From Alkalinema sp. FACHB-956 (GTDB lineage: Bacteria; Cyanobacteriota; Cyanobacteriia; Leptolyngbyales; Leptolyngbyaceae), in NCBI RefSeq assembly GCF_014697025.1, contig NZ_JACJRC010000014.1:1-64000 (forward strand): a stretch of DNA of 64,000 nucleotides. The letters run 5' to 3'. The position numbers and the translations under genes were made by a program. Under the pieces are notes generated by a model. It worked only from the letters and a program-made list of their open reading frames with translations. It ran no database searches and was not told where the DNA came from. Numbering within the stretch: the stretch's first letter is position 1; each line of letters starts with the position of its first letter. Of the stretch, positions 21,743-30,043 are shown piece by piece.

Positions 21743-22102
21743 TGTCAGGTTTGCTGGCTGTACCCAATGCTTTGGGGATGCGGGTATCTAATGATACGCG
21801 ATCGATTTTTGGGATACGGATTGACAGTGCCGATGGTTTATTCGTAGTCTAGTTTCTCAAGGCGACGCCGTGGACATCCTTCTTTCAGTTGGGTTTACGA
21901 TTGACGGTTTGGTATGAAGCACGGGGCCGCTGGGATCCTGAAAATTTAGGGCACTACCTGGGATTGCTGTCACAAGCCCAAGTAGCTATTCCCCCTCGCT
22001 GCGTGAACAGCAAGGAGGCTTGTTGAGAATTTTAACATTCGATCGAGCCACTCTTGTTTGTGATGTCAAACGGGGTGGCTCTAAATTTTTGGGCTTCTTT
22101 AG
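21743..22102. other. Spacer with a short unassigned open stretch
   Basis: About 360 bases. From about 21890 to 22025 a frame without a good start reads WYEARGRWDPENLGHYLG and stops at 22023-22025. It may be the tail of a decayed gene. I do not recognise it. Confidence 0.3.
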
Positions 22103-22146
22103 ATACCCTCATCCCCGACCCTTCTCCCGCAAACAGGAGAAGGGAG
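22103..22146. repeat. Dispersed cyanobacterial hairpin repeat
   Basis: CCCTCATCCCCGACCC followed by CTTCTCC, a 9-nt loop and GGAGAAGGG. A CCCTTCTCC/GGAGAAGGG inverted repeat after 'cctcatccccnaccc' is a widespread interspersed element in cyanobacterial genomes. It lies upstream of the small gene at 22192. Confidence 0.7.
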
Positions 22147-22191
22147 CAAGATTGCAGCAGGGATGATATTCACTACAGGAGAAGCTCAATT

Positions 22192-22410
22192 ATGACGAAA
22201 GGTTCTAGCGATCGGAGCGATCGTTCGGTTCAATCTGAGAAACAACGCTTACAGATCCACTTAATCGGTCACAAGGAGTTCGTGCAGGACACGATTAATC
22301 AATTCCATGCCCATCGGATCGCGGACAGGATTCATTGGAGTCAACCGATGAAGATTGTGCATTCCGACGGGCAATACATCAGTATATTGAGTCGCGAACG
22401 GCTGCGATAA
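22192..22410 (+). CDS. Small basic protein of unknown function
   Basis: A 72-residue protein, start chosen at ATG 22192 because 'acaggagaag' lies 7-8 bases upstream. It contains RLQIHLIGHKEFVQDTI and IADRIHWSQPMKI, and ends SILSRERLR. It is predicted soluble and alpha/beta. It resembles short uncharacterised cyanobacterial proteins but no function is known. It lies 120 bases before xisH and could share its transcript. A longer reading from 22054 runs through the dispersed repeat and is rejected. Confidence 0.6.
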   Translation: MTKGSSDRSDRSVQSEKQRLQIHLIGHKEFVQDTINQFHAHRIADRIHWSQPMKIVHSDGQYISILSRERLR

Positions 22411-22532
22411 CGGCTGAAGCATGAGGAATCCCGCAGGTTCGTTGATGGGAATGGCCTGCGGGGATTGACAAGAAGGGCTAAACCTTCATCGTTAAAATTG
22501 ACAGCGGTAAACAGATTGAGGCAACTTTTGGG

Positions 22533-22946
22533 ATGGCAAAGGACTTATTCCATCACGTGGTCAAAGATGCGCTCATCGCAGAGGGCTGGCAGATCACTCA
22601 CGATCCCTTTCCTGTGGATTATGGTGACGTACAAATGCAAATTGATCTCGGTGCAGAACGCCTCCTTGCCGCCCAGCGTGACACTGAAAAAATTGCCGTA
22701 GAAGTCAAAAGCTTCACCAAACCCTCCGCCATTTCCGAGTTTCATACCGCTGTTGGGCAATATCTCAATTATCGAAGAGCACTGCGATCGCAAGAACCCG
22801 CCCGAATTCTCTATCTGGCCGTTCCGCTCCAAACCTACGATGATTTTTTCCGACTTCGATTCATTCAAGAAGGCGTTCAGGAATACCAACTTCGCTTACT
22901 CATCTATGATGTAGAAGAACGGAGGATCAGCCAATGGATAAAATAG
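22533..22946 (+). CDS. xisH: XisH family protein
   Basis: A 137-residue protein beginning MAKDLFHHVVKDALIAEGW, the hallmark of XisH. A restriction-endonuclease-like core is visible: IDLGAERL, then IAVEVKSF (E-x-K) and FHTAVGQYLNYR. XisH and XisI were first described as factors controlling excision of the fdxN element in Anabaena. Many copies occur in cyanobacteria without that element, where the role is unclear and toxin-antitoxin or nuclease-like function is possible. Here the gene overlaps xisI by 13 bases, so the two are translationally coupled. No recombinase gene is nearby. Confidence 0.9.
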   Translation: MAKDLFHHVVKDALIAEGWQITHDPFPVDYGDVQMQIDLGAERLLAAQRDTEKIAVEVKSFTKPSAISEFHTAVGQYLNYRRALRSQEPARILYLAVPLQTYDDFFRLRFIQEGVQEYQLRLLIYDVEERRISQWIK

Positions 22947-23269
22947 CAAAGTACCGACAAATCGTACAAAGCATCCTACTTGCCCATAGTCAAATCCAAC
23001 CGGCCTATGGTGAGATTGAAATGGAGGTGTTATTTGATCAAGACCGCGATCGCTACCAAGTTCTGCGAGCCGGGTGGCTCCAGAAAAAGCGCGTGTATGG
23101 TGTTTTGATTCACATTGATCTGAAGGGTGAAAAAATTTGGATTCAATATGATGGCACAGAAGTTGGGGTGGCCAACGAGCTGATGGAACAAGGGATTCCC
23201 AAAACAGACATTGTGTTAGCCTACCATTCTCCCTTCATCCGCCAATACGATGGCTTTGCTGTTAGCTAG
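22934..23269 (+). CDS. xisI: XisI family protein
   Basis: A 111-residue partner of XisH, starting MDKIAKYRQIVQSIL, with the typical XisI features YGEIEMEVLFDQDRDRYQVL, GWLQKKRVYGVLIHIDLK and the C-terminal IVLAYHSPFIRQYDGFAV. It is soluble. It begins within the last 13 bases of xisH. The pair forms the left edge of the accessory region, which continues with relic intron repeats. Confidence 0.92.
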   Translation: MDKIAKYRQIVQSILLAHSQIQPAYGEIEMEVLFDQDRDRYQVLRAGWLQKKRVYGVLIHIDLKGEKIWIQYDGTEVGVANELMEQGIPKTDIVLAYHSPFIRQYDGFAVS

Positions 23270-23343: not shown

Positions 23344-23460
23344 ACGATCGTGGTAATTGAGAGCGATCGTGTATTTTCTCCCTCATTTGTGTGATGCAAA
23401 ATTCGATCTGCTTTTCAGATTGTTTCGTGGGCAGTCGTTTTTCGGTAAAAATCTAGAAAG
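23344..23460 (-). repeat. Relic fragment of the group II intron-like repeat (copy B)
   Basis: It shares 'gagagcgatcgt', 'tgtgtgatgcaaaattc' and 'ttttcagattgtttcgtggg' with copy C (24698-25078). Only the 5'-most preserved part (as read on the minus strand) is present. It lies between xisI and the unknown membrane protein. Confidence 0.6.
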
Positions 23461-23638
23461 ACTTTGTCATTAGCCTAACCGATCGTTGCACCTGACTGGC
23501 AATGCTACAGTGGTTTTAGCAAAATCAACTCGCAGCAAATGAACTTTGCGTTATACTACATTCAACTTTCCGTAAAGTCACAGCTTAGTTAGTTGAGATA
23601 CGTTAGACTTTATACAAAGTCCTGACCGTATATCTACT

Positions 23639-24667
23639 ATGACTGACCCTCAATCATTGGAAACTGGAAGTATTGTTCCAAACTCAACGGAAGCGATTGC
23701 ATCTAGATCTCTTGATGACTTTAAAGCTCTTTTTTATTTGTACAACGCGAAACCTGATACAGAGATTCGCCTGCTAAAGGGTGGGAAAATAGTAGAGCTT
23801 TCAGATATTAGAAGTCTTGAAGAACAAGTAGCAGCTAAACTTGGAAATCATGAAACTCTCGGGCAGACTGTATCAATAACTTTCAAGCTGTCTAATAAAA
23901 AGATTAAAGAGTTTTCTACTTGGGCTGAATTTGAACGAGCGCAGTGGAATACAGTGAATGACAAAGTTCAAGCACTTAATCTTAGTTGGAATATTCTTAT
24001 TCAGTTACCACAATATAAATCTCCACAACCTCACTCAATGAAGGTAAGAATTGGAAATGCAATACCACCTAAAGATATAATTCAACTAATCTTTACTAGT
24101 GATGACATTTCAGAGGTAATGGAGGCAGAATCTCCTGGTGTTTGCAAAGTTGACTTTATAAATAATATAGTTGCAAATGAATTGCTTTTTATTGTAGATG
24201 AGTGGTACAAAGGGTTGAAAAAAGCACCTGAACCTATTGCTGCTCAGAAATTTTTAAAGAAATATGGAAAAGATGCAAGTCAATTTATTCGACTTCTTTT
24301 TCCACCCCTTTTGTTATTTATCACATGTAGTTACACAGGATACATATATCCCATCATTGGCATTGGTCAAGAGCTTTCAATTAATGCTTTACAAACGGTT
24401 TTAGCGTTTTTGTTGACTATCTTCACGATTGGAGTTTTTCTAGGTAGTAGCATTGAAAAATCAATTGACAGGTTGATCGATAAGCTTGAAGTCTATCCAA
24501 ATTTTTTAATTACTAAAGGTGATCAAAATGCTGTGGAAGATTTCGAACGCAATAATAATAAGCTAACCAATCAAATTTTCAGTAGAGTAGCTTGGATATT
24601 GTTTAGTATTCCCGTATCTTCTGGCATAAAGTTTTTAATTGCCTACTTCAATCCTTTAAAGCATTAA
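23639..24667 (+). CDS. Unknown protein with cytoplasmic N-domain and C-terminal membrane helices
   Basis: A 342-residue protein with no recognised family. Residues 1-200 are soluble and mixed alpha/beta (LLKGGKIVELSDIRSLEEQVAAKL, TVSITFKLSNKKIKEFSTW). Three hydrophobic segments follow: LLFPPLLLFITCSYTGYIYPIIGIG (about 219-243), ALQTVLAFLLTIFTIGVFLG (250-269) and a final pair-like stretch, AWILFSIPVSSGIKFLIAYF (318-337). Codon and base use is markedly AT-richer than in the neighbouring housekeeping genes, which suggests recent transfer. It is flanked by relic intron repeats. A soluble sensor part joined to C-terminal helices is a layout seen in defence effectors, but that is inference. Confidence 0.7.
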   Translation: MTDPQSLETGSIVPNSTEAIASRSLDDFKALFYLYNAKPDTEIRLLKGGKIVELSDIRSLEEQVAAKLGNHETLGQTVSITFKLSNKKIKEFSTWAEFERAQWNTVNDKVQALNLSWNILIQLPQYKSPQPHSMKVRIGNAIPPKDIIQLIFTSDDISEVMEAESPGVCKVDFINNIVANELLFIVDEWYKGLKKAPEPIAAQKFLKKYGKDASQFIRLLFPPLLLFITCSYTGYIYPIIGIGQELSINALQTVLAFLLTIFTIGVFLGSSIEKSIDRLIDKLEVYPNFLITKGDQNAVEDFERNNNKLTNQIFSRVAWILFSIPVSSGIKFLIAYFNPLKH

Positions 24668-24697: not shown

Positions 24698-25078
24698 TCA
24701 GGAGGGAATTTAACCCTCCCCTCCCATACTACCTGCCATGTAGGTTCGCAATGGGCAGATCAGGTCGCCGCGCAAACAACACTGCTGACTGAAGCGTAAC
24801 CTTGGGCTTGCTTCCAAAGTTGCTTAATTGAGAGCAATCCCTGTTTCTTCCAACCATTCATGGGTCATGCCCGTTTGCGTTGCCAACGTCTTTGACAAGC
24901 GCCAATAGCCTTTACGACTAATGCCCATCAAAAAAGTAACTGGCTCATTGACCCAGAAACCCGTCCGCGAAAGCAGAAATAGTGGCAGTTGAGAGCGATC
25001 GTATAGTTTCTCACCCATCTGTGTGATGCAAAATTCTATTGACTTTTCAGATTGTTTCGTGGGTAGTCGTTTGTGATA
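24698..25078 (-). mobile_element. 3' relic of a group II intron, best copy (copy C)
   Basis: On the minus strand the segment encodes GISRKGYWRLSKTLATQTGM and THEWLEETG, then, after a one-base frameshift, LSIKQLWKQAQGYA. This is the C-terminal end of a group II intron reverse transcriptase/maturase. It is followed by G-rich sequence at 24698-24780 ('atgggaggggagggtt' on the minus strand), like the 3' ends of such introns. No RT catalytic domain (YADD box) remains, so the copy is dead. The same sequence recurs at 25868 and 26878 in the same orientation. Confidence 0.75.
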
Positions 25079-25152
25079 TGGAAATCCATCTGGTCATAAC
25101 AGTCACGATCGCTCATACTGAGTGATAGCCCCTTTGAGAATAGGAGCCGTCT

Positions 25153-25383
25153 ATGTTATCGCAAGAACTGAAGGCACAGGTCTTTAAGCTGCCTCCCAGC
25201 GATCGCCTTGCACTGATCTCTGCCATCATCGAATCCCTACAAAATACTCCCGTGACCCAGTCTGACCGCTCTAGTGCAATTCGACGAATGAGGGGCTTAT
25301 TAAAAACAGACCAACCCGCCCCAACCGATGAAGAAGTAGCAGCGATGCTGGAAGAGCGACGGGTGGAGAAGTATCTTCAGTGA
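25153..25383 (+). CDS. Antitoxin of a VapC-type toxin-antitoxin pair
   Basis: A 76-residue protein, MLSQELKAQVFKLPPSDRLALISAIIESL onward. A helix-rich N-terminus of the type LKxxVxxLPxxDRLALIxAI is common in small antitoxins encoded before PIN-domain toxins in cyanobacteria. The C-terminal part (PTDEEVAAMLEERRVEKYL) is acidic then basic, as expected for a toxin-wrapping tail. The toxin starts within its stop codon (GTGA overlap). 'gaataggagc' upstream is a good ribosome-binding site. Confidence 0.8.
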   Translation: MLSQELKAQVFKLPPSDRLALISAIIESLQNTPVTQSDRSSAIRRMRGLLKTDQPAPTDEEVAAMLEERRVEKYLQ

Positions 25384-25808
25384 GAGTCTTAATTGATACC
25401 AATATCGTTCTAGATTTTCTGCTGCAACGAGAGCCTTTTTTCCAAGATGCAGAACTGCTATTTCAGGCGATCGATGTGGAGGAAGTTGTTGCCTACGTGA
25501 CAGCGACAACTTTAACGGATATTTTCTATATCTCACGTAGGCATACCCAGAGTATTGAGCAAGCGCGGCAAGCAGTCTCAGAAACACTCGCTGCCATGAT
25601 GATCTGTCCGGTTGATCGAGTTGTTCTGGAATCAGCTTTGAACTCTGGTTTACCTGATTTTGAAGATGCTGTTCAAATTTTTAGCGCAGTTGCTCAAGGA
25701 TTAGAAGCGATTGTGACCCGTGATGCTCAAGGTTTTTTGAGTTCACCTATACCCGTATTATCCATTCAAGATTTGTTGCAGCAAGTCAGACAGCAAAATG
25801 GTGGTTAG
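25380..25808 (+). CDS. PIN-domain ribonuclease toxin (VapC family)
   Basis: A 142-residue PIN-domain protein. The acidic metal-binding residues are visible: D6 in LIDTNIVLDFLL, the conserved position in LPDFEDAVQ (D93, D96), and D115 in IVTRDAQGF. Such toxins cleave RNA when released from the antitoxin. The GTG start at 25380 overlaps the antitoxin stop by four bases, so the pair is coupled. It lies between two relic intron copies (C and D). Confidence 0.88.
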   Translation: MRVLIDTNIVLDFLLQREPFFQDAELLFQAIDVEEVVAYVTATTLTDIFYISRRHTQSIEQARQAVSETLAAMMICPVDRVVLESALNSGLPDFEDAVQIFSAVAQGLEAIVTRDAQGFLSSPIPVLSIQDLLQQVRQQNGG

Positions 25809-25867
25809 GTTGGTTGGGACGCATAGATTGAGATCGTATTGTTAGCTTGTCGCAAACGCTGTCCAGT

Positions 25868-26183
25868 CGGGTCGAAGAGGGGAATTTAACCCTCCCCTAC
25901 CACACCATCTGCCGTGCGGGTTTGCAACAGGCAGATCAGGTCACCGCGCAAACCACACTGATAACTTAAGCGTAACCTTGGGGTTTCTTCCAAAGTTGCT
26001 TAATTGAGAGCAATCCCTATTTCTTCAACCATTCATGGGTCATTCCCGCTTGCGTTGCCAACGTCTTTGACAAGCGCCAATAGCCTTTACGACTAGTGCC
26101 CGTCAAAAAAGTAACTGGCTCATTAACCCAGGAACCCGTCCGCGAAAGCAGAAATAGTGGCAGTTGAGAGCGATCGTGAAGGC
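25868..26183 (-). mobile_element. 3' relic of a group II intron (copy D)
   Basis: Most of copy C recurs here with many substitutions, from the G-rich end ('gggaatttaaccctcccct', about 25875) through the maturase tail to 'gagagcgatcgt' (26167-26178), where similarity stops. Orientation is the same as for the other copies. Small deletions break the reading frame. Confidence 0.72.
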
Positions 26184-26258
26184 TCTCACTCAGGTGAACT
26201 TTGCGTTAGACCGATTTGCGGTATGAATTAAGCAGCCCCAAATTGCTGAGTTAGAACC

Positions 26259-26291
26259 AAAAAGGGTTCAAGCAGAAATGCTTGAACCCTT
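26259..26291 (-). terminator. Terminator of the RNA-binding protein gene
   Basis: A 13-bp stem, AAGGGTTCAAGCA (26262-26274) with TGCTTGAACCCTT (26279-26291), and a GAAA/TTTC tetraloop. On the minus strand it runs into TTTTT (complement of 26259-26263). It lies about 50 bases after the stop of the minus-strand RNA-binding protein gene. Confidence 0.92.
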
Positions 26292-26340
26292 GTCGTTCGG
26301 TCTGACCTCTACAGCCAGACTACTACCTCAGCTTCGATAT

Positions 26341-26649
26341 TTAGTAGCCACGAGAGAAGCTGTTACCGCTTCTACGATTGCCACCAAATGAGCCGCCGCC
26401 GCGATCTTCACGAGGCTTAGCTTTATTCACTTTCAAATCACGACCCATCCACTCCGCACCGTCTAGTGCTTCAATGGCAACCGTTTCCTCGGAATCCGCA
26501 CTCATTTCTACGAAACCGAAACCACGCATACGACCAGTTTCACGATCGACGGGAAGCTGAACTCGCTTGACGGATCCATACTCTGCAAATACAGAAGTCA
26601 GATCGGCATCAGTAACGTCATAGGACAGGTTGCCTACATAAATTGACAT
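26341..26649 (-). CDS. RRM-type RNA-binding protein with glycine-rich tail
   Basis: A 102-residue protein of the cyanobacterial Rbp family. It has a single RRM with RNP2 IYVGNLSY (residues 3-10) and RNP1 RGFGFVEM (about 43-50), then a basic and Gly/Ser/Arg-rich tail (GGGSFGGNRRSG to SFSRGY). Family members bind single-stranded RNA. Several are cold-induced, and others are reported to aid mRNA localisation near thylakoids. A long leader and a strong terminator frame it as a monocistronic unit. It sits between relic intron copies. Confidence 0.93.
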   Translation of the reverse strand: MSIYVGNLSYDVTDADLTSVFAEYGSVKRVQLPVDRETGRMRGFGFVEMSADSEETVAIEALDGAEWMGRDLKVNKAKPREDRGGGSFGGNRRSGNSFSRGY

Positions 26650-26877
26650 AGCTTGTCTCCAAAAATTGAAGGATATGTAGAGTAAATTTTCGGAGAGAAG
26701 TCTGTCAAAGGAAAAACTCGAAAACTTGTTAATACTAGGAACAAATGCTGCTAACCGATGTTTGTGCTCTAGAAACTAGAATAGCACGTTCGGGAAGCTT
26801 CTAGGGATTTTGAAGTTGTTAAGATTAACAAAAAATTAGGGAGTATTTATACTTATTATTGCCTGGTAGTCTAATCG
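26650..26877 (-). promoter_or_regulatory. Leader and promoter region of the RNA-binding protein gene
   Basis: About 230 AT-rich bases upstream of the rbp start, with runs such as 'taacaaaaaattaggg'. Cold-regulated rbp genes in cyanobacteria typically have long 5' leaders that act in regulation. The ribosome-binding region on the minus strand reads GGAGACAAGCT just before ATG. No -10 or -35 could be fixed. Confidence 0.5.
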
Positions 26878-27118
26878 GGCCGAGGAGAGAATTTAACCCT
26901 CCCCTCCCACACCACCCATCGTGCGGGTCCGCAATGGACAGATCAGGTCGCCGCGCAAACAACACTGCTGACTGAAGCGTAACCTTGGGCTTGCTTCCAA
27001 AGTTACTTAATTGAGGGCAATTCCTGTTTCTTCAACCATGCATGGGTCATTCCCGTTTGCATTGCCAACCTCTTTGACAAGCGCCAATAGCCTTTACAAT
27101 TAATGCCTGTCACGATCT
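26878..27118 (-). mobile_element. 3' relic of a group II intron (copy E)
   Basis: It resembles copy C from the G-rich 3' end (26885-26910) through the maturase tail, including 'gcaaacaacactgctgactg' (26957-26976). Similarity stops near 27105, where other sequence begins. It is the most truncated of the three long copies. The next 250 bases, to 27374, hold no gene, but 'acgggtaggggagggt' near 27270 echoes the G-rich end. Confidence 0.7.
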
Positions 27119-27374
27119 CATGACGATTACTTGTCCCCAGTTTGAATAGATTAGTAATGCGTGTCCATGGCTACGGCAGGCTTCGCCAACGGTCTGCGCT
27201 ACCGCTTCTGGTGTTTCACCAGGGCACACCAATAGACCCTTTTGAACGTTCTGCAACAGTGGATAGAGGGAACGGGTAGGGGAGGGTAAAAGAATCAGGG
27301 ATGTTATTTCTTATTAAGTCCCTAAGCATTTAGTGGAATAGAATTAATCCACGAGTTGACGAAATTGATCACTG

Positions 27375-28370
27375 ATGACATATCCTTTGCAGCCCCAATT
27401 TACTGAAGTTCTCACCCTGATTCAATCGGCTCAGCAAAAAGTTCTTGCCACCACAAACCAGGAGTTGATCAAACTTTATTGGAGCATCGGAAAATATATC
27501 AGCGATCGCATGACCGCATCCGAATGGGGACAAAAAACGATCGAACAACTTGCAGCGTTCATTCAAGCTCAAGAACCTGGTATCAAAGGCTTTGAAAAAC
27601 GCAACCTGTATAGAATGCGCCAGTTTTACGAAACTTATCCCGATTCTGAAATTGTGTCAGCACTGCTGACACAATTAAGCTGGACTCATCACACCATCCT
27701 CATATCTCGTTGTAAAACTCAAGACGAACGCCTTTTCTATCTCGAACTAGCTGCTACTGAACGCTACAGTACCCGTGAACTAGATCGCCAAATCAGCAGT
27801 GGCATCTTCGAGCGCACTCGCCTTGCTGATGCTAAACTTCCCCAAACAAGCCATCCTAGACCGCTTACTGGAGTCTTTCGCGATAGCTACGTCCTCGACT
27901 TTCTCAATCTGCCGCCTAATCATTCTGAAAACGACCTGAAAACTGCTCTTGTCGCCTGCTTGAGAGATTTTATCCTAGAACTCGGTCGGGACTTTACTTT
28001 CTTAGGACAGGAATATCGTCTACAAGTTGGCAACAGTGACTTCTTTATCGATTTGCTCTTTTTCCATCGAGAACTCCAGAGCCTGGTTGCCTTTGAACTC
28101 AAAGTCGATAAATTTCAACCCGAATACCTTGGTCAGATTGAATTCTATCTCGAAGCGCTCGATCGTGATGTTAAAAAACCTCACGAGAATCCGAGCATTG
28201 GTGTTCTGCTCTGTCGCGATAAAGACAACGAAGTGGTTGAATATGCACTCAGCCGCTCAATTAGTCCTACTGTTGTCGCTGAATACGAAATCAAACTGAT
28301 CCCGAAAGACGTTTTACGCAGGAAATTGAACGAGTTCTATGAATTACTGGCAGGCAGAGAGGCGTTGTAA
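27375..28370 (+). CDS. DUF1016/YhcG-type PD-(D/E)XK nuclease
   Basis: A 331-residue protein with the two-domain layout of the YhcG family. The N-terminal helical DUF1016 domain shows KLYWSIGKYIS, KGFEKRNLYRMRQFY and LSWTHHTILI. The C-terminal restriction-fold nuclease has D226 in DFFIDLLFFH and E241-x-K243 in VAFELK, a complete D...E-x-K core. Length is normal. Such proteins often sit in restriction or defence islands. No methylase or restriction subunit is adjacent, and the AIPR-like gene follows about 480 bases later. Codon use is AT-richer than in core genes, which suggests transfer. Confidence 0.9.
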   Translation: MTYPLQPQFTEVLTLIQSAQQKVLATTNQELIKLYWSIGKYISDRMTASEWGQKTIEQLAAFIQAQEPGIKGFEKRNLYRMRQFYETYPDSEIVSALLTQLSWTHHTILISRCKTQDERLFYLELAATERYSTRELDRQISSGIFERTRLADAKLPQTSHPRPLTGVFRDSYVLDFLNLPPNHSENDLKTALVACLRDFILELGRDFTFLGQEYRLQVGNSDFFIDLLFFHRELQSLVAFELKVDKFQPEYLGQIEFYLEALDRDVKKPHENPSIGVLLCRDKDNEVVEYALSRSISPTVVAEYEIKLIPKDVLRRKLNEFYELLAGREAL

Positions 28371-28852
28371 TTTTTAAGGTGAGTTGGTTTCGATTGCGGA
28401 GTGGTCGATCGCAGTTGTAAAGATCTTCATTGCGGCACGGTCTAACCAGGTGGCACGGTCTACCGGTCGTTGGAACGACGAACAGAGTCTTCTCATTGCG
28501 TTTCTAGCTCATTCGTCGCCGCTGAACTTGGTCGTTAAAACCTGGAGGCACACTCTTCAAGCACAGTGTCTACTGCTTTTCGGTAATTTTCAACAGTGGT
28601 GGCCGGAGAATTGTTCAGACACCCTGAATGACTGATCCCTAGGTCTGAGAATGCTCTCCCTAGCTTGGCGACCTGTATTCGCAATAAATATATATTTTAA
28701 GTCTCTAGGTAACCCTCAACTTCTTTACGGGGAAATAGCCATTCAAGGATCTGCAGGTTGCCATTTCAAAATTTTGTGTTACCTTAGTGCACAGGTTCCG
28801 TTGAACCATATTTACTGTTCAGTTGAACAAATAAACAAAGGAAAGCTAAATC
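28371..28852. other. Spacer between the DUF1016 nuclease and the AIPR gene
   Basis: About 480 bases without a supported gene. A short direct repeat ('tggcacggtcta' type) lies near 28434-28462. The ribosome-binding site 'aaaggaaagc' precedes the AIPR start. Confidence 0.4.
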
Positions 28853-30043
28853 ATGACAGAGAAGAAAGTTCAATTCTTTGCTAAGTCTGCCTGTCGCGTT
28901 TTTCAGGACAGCGATGATAATAGGCAGCTTTGGTCTTTGACTGTAGCGGTCAAAGATTTGCCACAAGGTTTTCCATATGGGCCGAATGCCAGGAATGCTG
29001 ATCTGGCTGCCAAGCCTGCCAAGGCTATGCTCGGAACTCTAAGGTCAGAACCTCAGCAGTTTATCTATTACAACAATGGCATCATGCTAGTTGTTGGATC
29101 CCTTCGAGCGAGACGAGTTGAAGGTGGAGATTTTGAAGTTCGAATTAAGTACATAGAGTCAAACGAGGAAACGGAAGATTTTCTTGGTCATGGTGTTCTC
29201 AATGGAGGACATACTTACAAGGCTTTGATGCACGCTCTTTACGGGCAACACAAACGGGGAGAGCGTTACCCAGAGATTCACCAAGCTTATGTTCAAGTCA
29301 CAGTAGCAGTTGGTGTTGACGAGGAGAGTGTCGCAAGTATTAGCCGTGCCAGAAATCTCTCTAAAGCAGTACCAGATTATGCGTTGAAAAATCTTGAACG
29401 TGATTGGCAAAAGATAGAAAGGTATTTGCCTTCAAGTTATCGCAGCAATGTAATTTTCAAGCCTAATGAGTTTGAGGAAAATCCAGACGAGGCTCCAAAA
29501 TACACGGTTGTTGATCTTGTTCAAAGGTTAGCTCTTCTCAACAATGACTTATTCGATTTTAGAAAGGATAGTCATCCTGTAACTGCTTACACAGGAAAAG
29601 GTTCTCTTGTTAGTAAGTGGAATGACAAAAACTACGAGCATGTGCTTCCTCTGCTGCCTGACATCCTGTGGTTAGAGGAGAAAGTCATGGAAGCTCATGA
29701 AAACCTTAACGGATATAGCAGCAGTGGCAAGAAGATTGTGATTACAAAAGTCAGTGGATGCAGTAATCAGCCTTCTACTTTGATTACGGGTCGAACTTTC
29801 AATCTCACAGTTGCGCCTCCATTTGTCATGCCTGTTTTAGCAGCTTTCCGCCTTCTTATTAAAGATGGTCAGTGGATAAAACCTAAAGAGGAATTATGGG
29901 ATCAGTATGGAGTGATGCTAGTCGAAAGGCTGTGGGATAACTACAAAATGGAAGGACGCTCAAGCGCAGCATCCTTTGGTCGTTCGAAGAGTACTTGGAA
30001 TGCTCTAACTAATACAATTGCTATGCAATTTGTTCAAATCTAA
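28853..30043 (+). CDS. AIPR-like (abortive infection phage resistance) protein
   Basis: A 396-residue protein with the core signatures of the AIPR family: QQFIYYNNGIMLVVGS (about 68-83) and GVLNGGHTYKAL (114-125), where family members read 'F..NNGIT' and 'IVNGxxT'. The family is linked to phage abortive infection. Its mechanism is poorly known. It is AT-rich compared with core genes and is preceded by a good ribosome-binding site ('aaaggaaagc'). It ends in a hairpin at 30082-30113 shared with the convergent next gene. It lies next to the DUF1016 nuclease in the accessory region. Confidence 0.82.
   Translation: MTEKKVQFFAKSACRVFQDSDDNRQLWSLTVAVKDLPQGFPYGPNARNADLAAKPAKAMLGTLRSEPQQFIYYNNGIMLVVGSLRARRVEGGDFEVRIKYIESNEETEDFLGHGVLNGGHTYKALMHALYGQHKRGERYPEIHQAYVQVTVAVGVDEESVASISRARNLSKAVPDYALKNLERDWQKIERYLPSSYRSNVIFKPNEFEENPDEAPKYTVVDLVQRLALLNNDLFDFRKDSHPVTAYTGKGSLVSKWNDKNYEHVLPLLPDILWLEEKVMEAHENLNGYSSSGKKIVITKVSGCSNQPSTLITGRTFNLTVAPPFVMPVLAAFRLLIKDGQWIKPKEELWDQYGVMLVERLWDNYKMEGRSSAASFGRSKSTWNALTNTIAMQFVQI

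Follow-up and report, generated by a model that had tools for sequence, protein, structure and literature searches.

Tails of a group IIC-attC intron joined to an integron attC block point to a decayed run of cassettes in Alkalinema sp. FACHB-956

Why do broken 3' ends of one group II intron lie among the accessory genes of a cyanobacterial genome, and why do several of them share the same junction with the same neighbouring repeat? The question is raised by a 64,000-nt stretch of Alkalinema sp. FACHB-956, here called the window, which corresponds to positions 1-64000 of contig C14 in a genome of 6.16 Mb and 59 contigs, and to which coordinates refer when no contig (C14, C33 and so on) or locus (L031 and so on) is named. 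The window contains three minus-oriented intron tails, termed C, D and E, which a preliminary description had listed together with two shorter pieces, A and B, as five dead copies of one element that could have driven recombination and so built an accessory island. The explanation that best accounts for the whole, and which we consider very probable, is that (i) the tails descend from group IIC-attC introns residing in the R'' boxes of attC, the recombination sites of integron cassettes, (ii) the region is a decayed run of such cassettes, with the integrase elsewhere in the genome, and (iii) an attC block was spread by recombination between tails.

C, D and E are real 5'-truncated tails of a single group II intron. 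They are copies of one tail family of 224 nt, D and E being 90% and 91% identical to C over the aligned parts, and C and D, with 1.2 kb between them, agree at 93% over 167 nt. On the minus strand each tail codes for the C-terminus of a maturase of the group II intron type; domain V and a domain VI region rich in G come next, and the maturase end encoded by E reads TRITNLFKLGTSNRHEIVTGINCKGYWRLSKRLAMQTGMTHAWLKKQELPSIK with the stop codon directly after. The preliminary attribution to relic 3' ends of one intron family is borne out by the alignment, the maturase C-terminus and the domain V/VI region, as is the placement of the tails between accessory genes. The maturase end and G-rich 3' end said to be common to five copies are, however, confined to C, D and E. 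A and B match our query, made of the tail of C and its neighbour, at positions 18-129 and 1-82 only, and the maturase part begins near position 131; A and B are thus no intron, but pieces of a separate attC-bearing repeat; in C, in D and in the copy on contig C33, the tail is joined to this repeat. A search of the whole genome with the same query disclosed 19 places, of which five carry the tail (C, D, E, C33:56936 and C7:49633) and the other 14 the different repeat alone.

No working copy of the intron was found in this genome, since whole-genome profile searches with PF08388, PF00078, RF00029 and RF02001 returned no match each; the copies, described earlier as dead for lack of a reverse transcriptase domain, are indeed without one. 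A complete element, with a reverse transcriptase open reading frame (ORF) and domains D1-D4, has no match in the window or the genome but is present in relatives, so that the tails are relics of the intron family and not working members of it. The intact intron sought by the preliminary description is therefore missing at home, fuller copies occurring in related genomes; with such relatives, and with a domain V that folds, the attribution to a group II intron holds. Rfam reported no intron in the window, a result that carries little weight because RF00029 matches one of seven related loci (L070), and misses L064, L065, L068 and L069 although their 3' ends are whole. In addition, NCBIfam and PDB searches with the 53-amino-acid (aa) tail of E returned nothing, and a plasmid search returned three records, at 57%, 51% and 36% identity.

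The class of the intron is disclosed mainly by its relatives. With the tail of E as query, 13 of 58 genomes searched gave matches, this genome counted, and seven loci from six relatives of the same family were sampled; among the relatives searched, no second species of the genus turned up. RF02001 and RF01998 match in all seven, preceding the tail in six and belonging to a second copy in L171. Full RVT_1 and GIIM domains are contained in frames of 447, 447 and 465 aa (L065, L068 and L069; four loci scanned), L070 displays a 319-aa frame with part of RVT_1, and other ORFs measure 454 aa in L168, outside the domain scan, and 204 aa in L064. The 5' exons end in TTGT in six of the seven relatives and in TAGT in the remaining one, and in four of them (L166, L168, L169 and L170) the attC spacer and L-box pairing stands before the intron, with 9 or 10 of 10 pairs formed (p<=0.01, 300 shuffles each). 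According to the available part of one survey, the CGC triad in domain V is a mark of group IIC, and the main insertion site of IIC-attC introns is TTGT/T in the attC bottom strand (PMC7923331). The TTGT exons and the attC geometry match this site and argue for a group IIC-attC lineage, some members of which appear to occupy weaker or decayed targets. Two observations weigh against this assignment: the 5' exons of three of the seven introns (L165, L167 and L171) fail the attC geometry score, and the motif RYYYA is strictly present before the intron in only one relative (L170). Among the tails of this genome, it strictly precedes the intron in three of four, C being eroded and excluded. As a separate observation, the second copy in L171 (L171:3090-3789, genome G005) comprises D1-D4 matches with no ORF of at least 150 aa on its strand, and lies about 1.1 kb downstream of the maturase tail.

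The hairpin of domain V comprises 12 pairs, and across 11 sequences 96.2% of the cells are paired, a level reached by none of 500 shuffles; four pairs change on both sides, and the covariation score was likewise reached by none of 500. Two of the five measures do not rise above the shuffles and count on the other side, namely the number of pairs changed on both sides (40 of 500) and the further pair types (419 of 500). The triad, CCGC opposite GUGG in the relatives, C33 and C7, is mutated to CTGC or CTGT in C, D and E and intact in C33 and C7. Folding of the 3' ends, suggested in the preliminary description, gave a divided outcome: domain V is the lowest-energy fold in C33, C7 and one relative, but not in C, D or E.

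Tail C discloses a further peculiarity. The 5' arm of its domain V, CCCAT, is that of E and C7, and the 3' arm, GCAGG, is that of C33; because the arms come from two types, two pairs that show covariation in the remaining ten sequences are left open in C alone. Its domain V is a chimera of two intron types, the clearest sign of mosaicism among the tails. Mosaic structure is seen also in E, whose first twelve informative sites resemble C and whose next nine resemble C7, none of 2000 permutations being as extreme. This switch is the strongest of the 10 triples tested, uncorrected for their number. Speaking against a general mosaicism, five of the 10 triples have p above 0.1, and the triple C/D/E gives 0.118 (C), 0.094 (D) and 0.016 (E). 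Beside the tails, the attC arms too may have been exchanged, as, by eye, the pre-intron attC in the 5' exon of L165 (genome G003) has one arm like that of L170 and the other like that of L169.

The site that an intron entered can be read best at D. This tail begins 57 bases past a toxin-antitoxin pair, and the same pair in two other cyanobacterial genomes, G348 (86%) and G091 (78%), matches through the 3' flank up to window base 25865, where the match ends; with the base that follows, the window enters the intron from its 3' end. Past the match, the two genomes read ACAACCCC...GCAGCGGACGG...GTTAGC or GTTATC, which is the native attC with R'' GTCCAAC, its L-box forming 10 of 10 pairs in G091. 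Given that the homology ends at the intron 3' end and that the native attC is found in G348 and G091, tail D sits in GTCCA^AC, and the remainder of the native attC of the toxin-antitoxin cassette is gone. This comparison makes the empty site of D the best evidence for insertion into attC. The search behind it covered 386 genomes, 54 of them with a match (this genome included), and 11 loci of other genomes were read (L173-L183). The match extends past the stop codon in L173 and L174, the attC being found by the scan in L174 and by eye in L173; in the other nine loci it lies within the gene only, with no scan attC within 400 bases.

On C33 a broken gene stands before the tail, 78% alike over 571 nt to a gene in the integrase locus L138 of a Pseudanabaena metagenome-assembled genome; after the L138 gene R'' reads GTCTA^AC, and C33 reads GTCTA^intron. 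The bases before the intron are GTCTA at E as well and GTAGA at C7, and at C the last bases have been lost. For C, no useful homolog disclosing an empty site was met in the 386 genomes. Several points weigh against insertion into attC throughout: the native attC of G348 is degenerate and was missed by the scan, the match of the broken C33 gene to L138 ends 103 bases before the intron and leaves the flank itself unaligned, and E lies before no plus-strand gene.

C, D and C33 have in common one junction between tail and attC block, in which the block (...ACTTTT) and the intron (TTTTGACGGGCAT...) are joined over a run of T. No similarity was found among the 150-base stretches that precede C, D, C33 and E (best E-value 0.37). 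These observations suggest a history in which a group IIC-attC intron, of which 5'-truncated remains are left, would have inserted into the R'' box of attC sites, in the bottom strand and opposite to the cassette genes. Within a run of T, one tail would then have become joined to the attC block belonging to a multi-copy cassette, and homologous recombination between tails would have given the tail-plus-attC block to other intron-marked genes. In this way, the gene before C, the gene before D and the gene on C33, which are unrelated, would have come to share the block that they now have instead of their own attC. The events would presumably have followed in this order, with homologous recombination and not duplication as the means of spread, and the resulting units may have been moved by the integrase. 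We see an even chance for the simplest reading, in which the tails recombined with one another and genes carrying this intron received a tail to which the attC block had been attached before. Equally balanced is our judgement that the units of C, D and C33 are natural fossils of intron-mediated cassette remodelling, in which a dead tail served as the homology patch for replacing a native attC. The C33 unit keeps its attC; D keeps half of that of its block and C none, so that the C and D units are not expected to move. Of recombination as builder of the island, as formerly conceived, a narrower form is supported: the tails display signs of recombination with one another, and the data speak for an exchange of attC ends of three cassettes.

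The alternative that survives best, possible though on the whole unlikely, holds that a single deletion joined tail and block, that the shared junction reflects segmental duplication plus gene conversion, and that the front genes were replaced later. A junction within a T-run is what one deletion would give, and the closeness of C and D in position and sequence favours duplication or conversion, gene conversion between near repeats being well known. Nevertheless, the sequences in front of D and C33 belong to unrelated genes and both stop precisely at the 3' end of the intron, following GTCCA and GTCTA respectively, and for D other genomes show the empty site, in which attC lies at that very base; a later gene replacement is unlikely to stop at the intron end, which counts against duplication. 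As a separate observation on the junction, at C33:56887-57295 (L034, minus relative to the cassette) block and maturase tail form one open frame of 75 aa (MGEKLHDRSQLPLFLLSRTGFWVNETVTFLTGINRKGYWRLSK...). The fused frame is broken in C and D, and the read-through on C33 is probably due to chance.

Spread by recombination between tails concerns a repeat that ends in an integron attC site. Homology between its copies stops at the G^TT crossover point. Ten copies can be aligned over 84 nt, in which the 11 bases before the crossover (...TTTGCG^TT) and the two after it agree in 9 or 10 of the ten; further on, the third base agrees in eight and the next four in 5, 4, 6 and 3, so that conservation collapses. 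These boundaries would fit recombination by IntI at G^TT; one copy, C4:130334, is damaged in the crossover region. The lowest-energy fold of the L033 and L037 copies consists of complete R and L stems, the spacer and the bulges being unpaired, and to the eye the bulges of the repeat attC fall at the places where the canonical attC beside the integrase has them. Model R1, constructed from the attC repeat alone, was run over 46 integrase loci (the 45 of the strict scan described below and L093), giving 10 matches at E<=5, two of them below 0.01. It matches a foreign attC found by geometry at L138:125-211 (34 bits, E 4e-8), and it also matches near the introns of genome G010 (34 and 25 bits). The attC content of the window comprises one nearly whole site (at 23473) and one half site (26196-26211); C33 has more.

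Several properties of the repeat weigh against an attC end and would suit instead the end of a non-autonomous element resembling a miniature inverted-repeat transposable element, close to the tails by chance: (i) its sites mostly fold no better than shuffles (z above -1 in six of seven strands), (ii) the pairing displays no covariation in pair counts, (iii) homology among copies extends up to ~860 nt, beyond attC, and (iv) the left boundary is diffuse and not a crossover site. Such an element would explain neither the collapse of conservation at G^TT nor bulges placed like those of a canonical attC, and it is largely refuted by the model match at L138 and the empty site at D, which leaves it very improbable. 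Because its left end is diffuse, the repeat was not retained as a complete cassette bounded by a crossover point on either side.

This genome contains an integrase. The integron integrase (TIGR02249, 453.7 bits against a cut-off of 265) is encoded at C24:34325-35263 and contains the stretch ALARKYTNAPRSWNWQYVFP, which we take to be the IntI patch. Divergent from it runs a gene of the ANT(2'')-type family (PF10706, 124.9 bits), followed by a canonical attC at C24:33366-33452. The strict geometry scan was applied to this integrase locus and to 44 of 80 further loci, picked because their titles name cyanobacteria (45 loci, 425,315 bases), and returned 30 attC sites in 18 loci, versus one in one shuffle. 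Its geometry detects the repeat sites at L033, L036 and L037; it found no attC in the window, where the degenerate site escapes it, and a first attC scan of the window had been no better than shuffles (3 sites versus 1-4). A looser scan of stretches of this genome, run without a shuffle control, gave nine places, namely the integrase-side site, three repeat copies, three canonical-looking sites (L033:163, L039:7750 and L044:4997) and two others (L033:15226 and L048:18043), which are taken as chance.

With intron tails in place of native attC sites, the accessory island is partly a decayed cassette run, and its surroundings, formerly regarded as an island of intron relics, are better explained by an integron. 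Five intron relics in an ordinary accessory island devoid of an integron are hardly credible, as, for all that C, D and E are real tails, A and B hold no intron sequence and integrase, attC and empty site are present.

Table 1. Features of the window that bear on the intron tails and the attC-bearing repeat
Feature	Position	Strand	Remarks
A, solo piece of the attC-adjacent block, not intron	291-402	minus	matches query positions 18-129
Left part of the multi-copy attC-bearing repeat	21778-22447	plus	contains a small gene, 22192-22410
XisH and XisI genes	22533-23269	plus	PF08814, PF08869; flanked by the left part and the attC block of the repeat
attC-adjacent block of the repeat, not intron	23345-23472	plus	encloses B (23347-23428)
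attC site of the repeat family	23473-23556	plus	R'' GCCTAAC, R' GTTATAC; somewhat degenerate
Gene just before tail C	23639-24667	plus	342 aa, no Pfam match
Intron tail C	24700-24929	minus	maturase C-terminus with a 1-nt frameshift (one-base insertion), chimeric domain V, eroded 3' end
Domain V of C	24728-24761	minus	5' arm as in E and C7, 3' arm as in D and C33; two pairs do not form
attC-adjacent block fused to tail C	24936-25070	plus	own attC lost
Toxin-antitoxin pair	25153-25808	plus	PIN_3 toxin; Unstab_antitox match below cut-off
GTCCA, opening five bases of the R'' box in the native attC of the toxin-antitoxin cassette	25861-25865	plus	intron junction 25865/25866
Intron tail D	25866-26109	minus	3' end intact; maturase part with one premature stop; domain V spans 25904-25937
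attC-adjacent block fused to tail D	26111-26212	plus	only the right half of attC (AGGTGAACTTTGCG^TTAGAC)
Intron tail E	26874-27166	minus	longest maturase part (NLFKLGTSNRHEIVTGINCKGYWRLSK..., premature stop), without attC block, 3' end GTCTA^ATCGGG

Beyond these elements, the small gene in the left part of the repeat (MTKGSSDRSDRS..., MAKGSSDRSDREVQ...) is multi-copy, with relatives on C1, C2, C4, C6, C7, C24, C31, C32 and C33. The relatives, some of them remnants, mostly sit before an attC block and have a strongly conserved upstream leader; the two copies scanned gave no Pfam match. One copy lies directly behind the integrase gene, running against it. The stretch C24:33366-35266 (L031:13366-15266), comprising the integrase gene, the divergent ANT(2'')-type nucleotidyltransferase gene and one attC, would constitute a minimal integron as described from its sequence. 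At C17:93207-93835 (L039), three elements adjoin: an attC of canonical form, an attC block that lacks its attC, and a fragment 97% identical to the toxin-antitoxin gene of the window. After tail E, positions 27375-30043 contain a DUF1016/YhcG nuclease gene and an AIPR (abortive infection type) gene.

Compared with known systems, the lineage resembles S.ma.I2 and related group IIC-attC introns in the CGC triad, the insertion into the attC bottom strand opposite to the cassette gene and the TTGT/T site, so far as the accessible parts of the reports describe them (PMC4424553, PMC8876359, PMC7923331); S.ma.I2 is there stated to have split a gene from its cognate attC (PMC8876359). Unlike these introns, the lineage described here occurs in cyanobacteria, is represented in this genome by tails alone and has one tail/attC-block junction in three genes. 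UHB.F1, H.ha.F1 and H.ha.F2, from hypersaline integrons or clusters of attC sites lacking integron integrases (CALINs), are likewise 5'-truncated group II introns among toxin-antitoxin cassettes; UHB.F1 is IIC, whereas both H.ha copies are IIB, and the accessible text describes neither an empty site nor a shared tail/attC junction for them (PMC7923331). In the model of Leon and Roy (2009), as outlined in the available portion of the same source, a gene gains its attC when copies of an intron undergo homologous recombination (PMC7923331), and here too recombination between intron copies would supply the attC. That model starts at a terminator, whereas at D the intron sits in the own attC of the gene, so that the event would be an exchange of attC and not a first acquisition.

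The gene intI has been reported in cyanobacterial chromosomes (PMC2426708) and an attC model for Cyanobacteria exists (PMC8352920), as far as the accessible parts of these papers go. Like chromosomal integrons of cyanobacteria, so far as these are described there, the present system comprises an integrase with a cassette and attC sites with R'', L'', L' and R' boxes; it differs in that one cassette was found beside the integrase and other attC sites lie on many other contigs. Among the titles and abstract openings listed by the literature searches, subscription papers being mostly outside reach, we met neither intron tails bridging cassettes to a foreign attC nor IIC-attC introns in cyanobacteria.

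To our knowledge, how a gene first acquires an attC is an open question on integrons. The locus displays a readable order of parts, comprising the native R'' box, the intron 3' end, the shared junction and the foreign attC, so that the genomes of related cyanobacteria offer a test of the Leon and Roy model. Part of the accessory island of Alkalinema sp. FACHB-956 would be a decayed cassette run that Rfam missed on the window and, if the proposed history is true, group IIC-attC introns can exchange the recombination sites of cassettes even after their own death.

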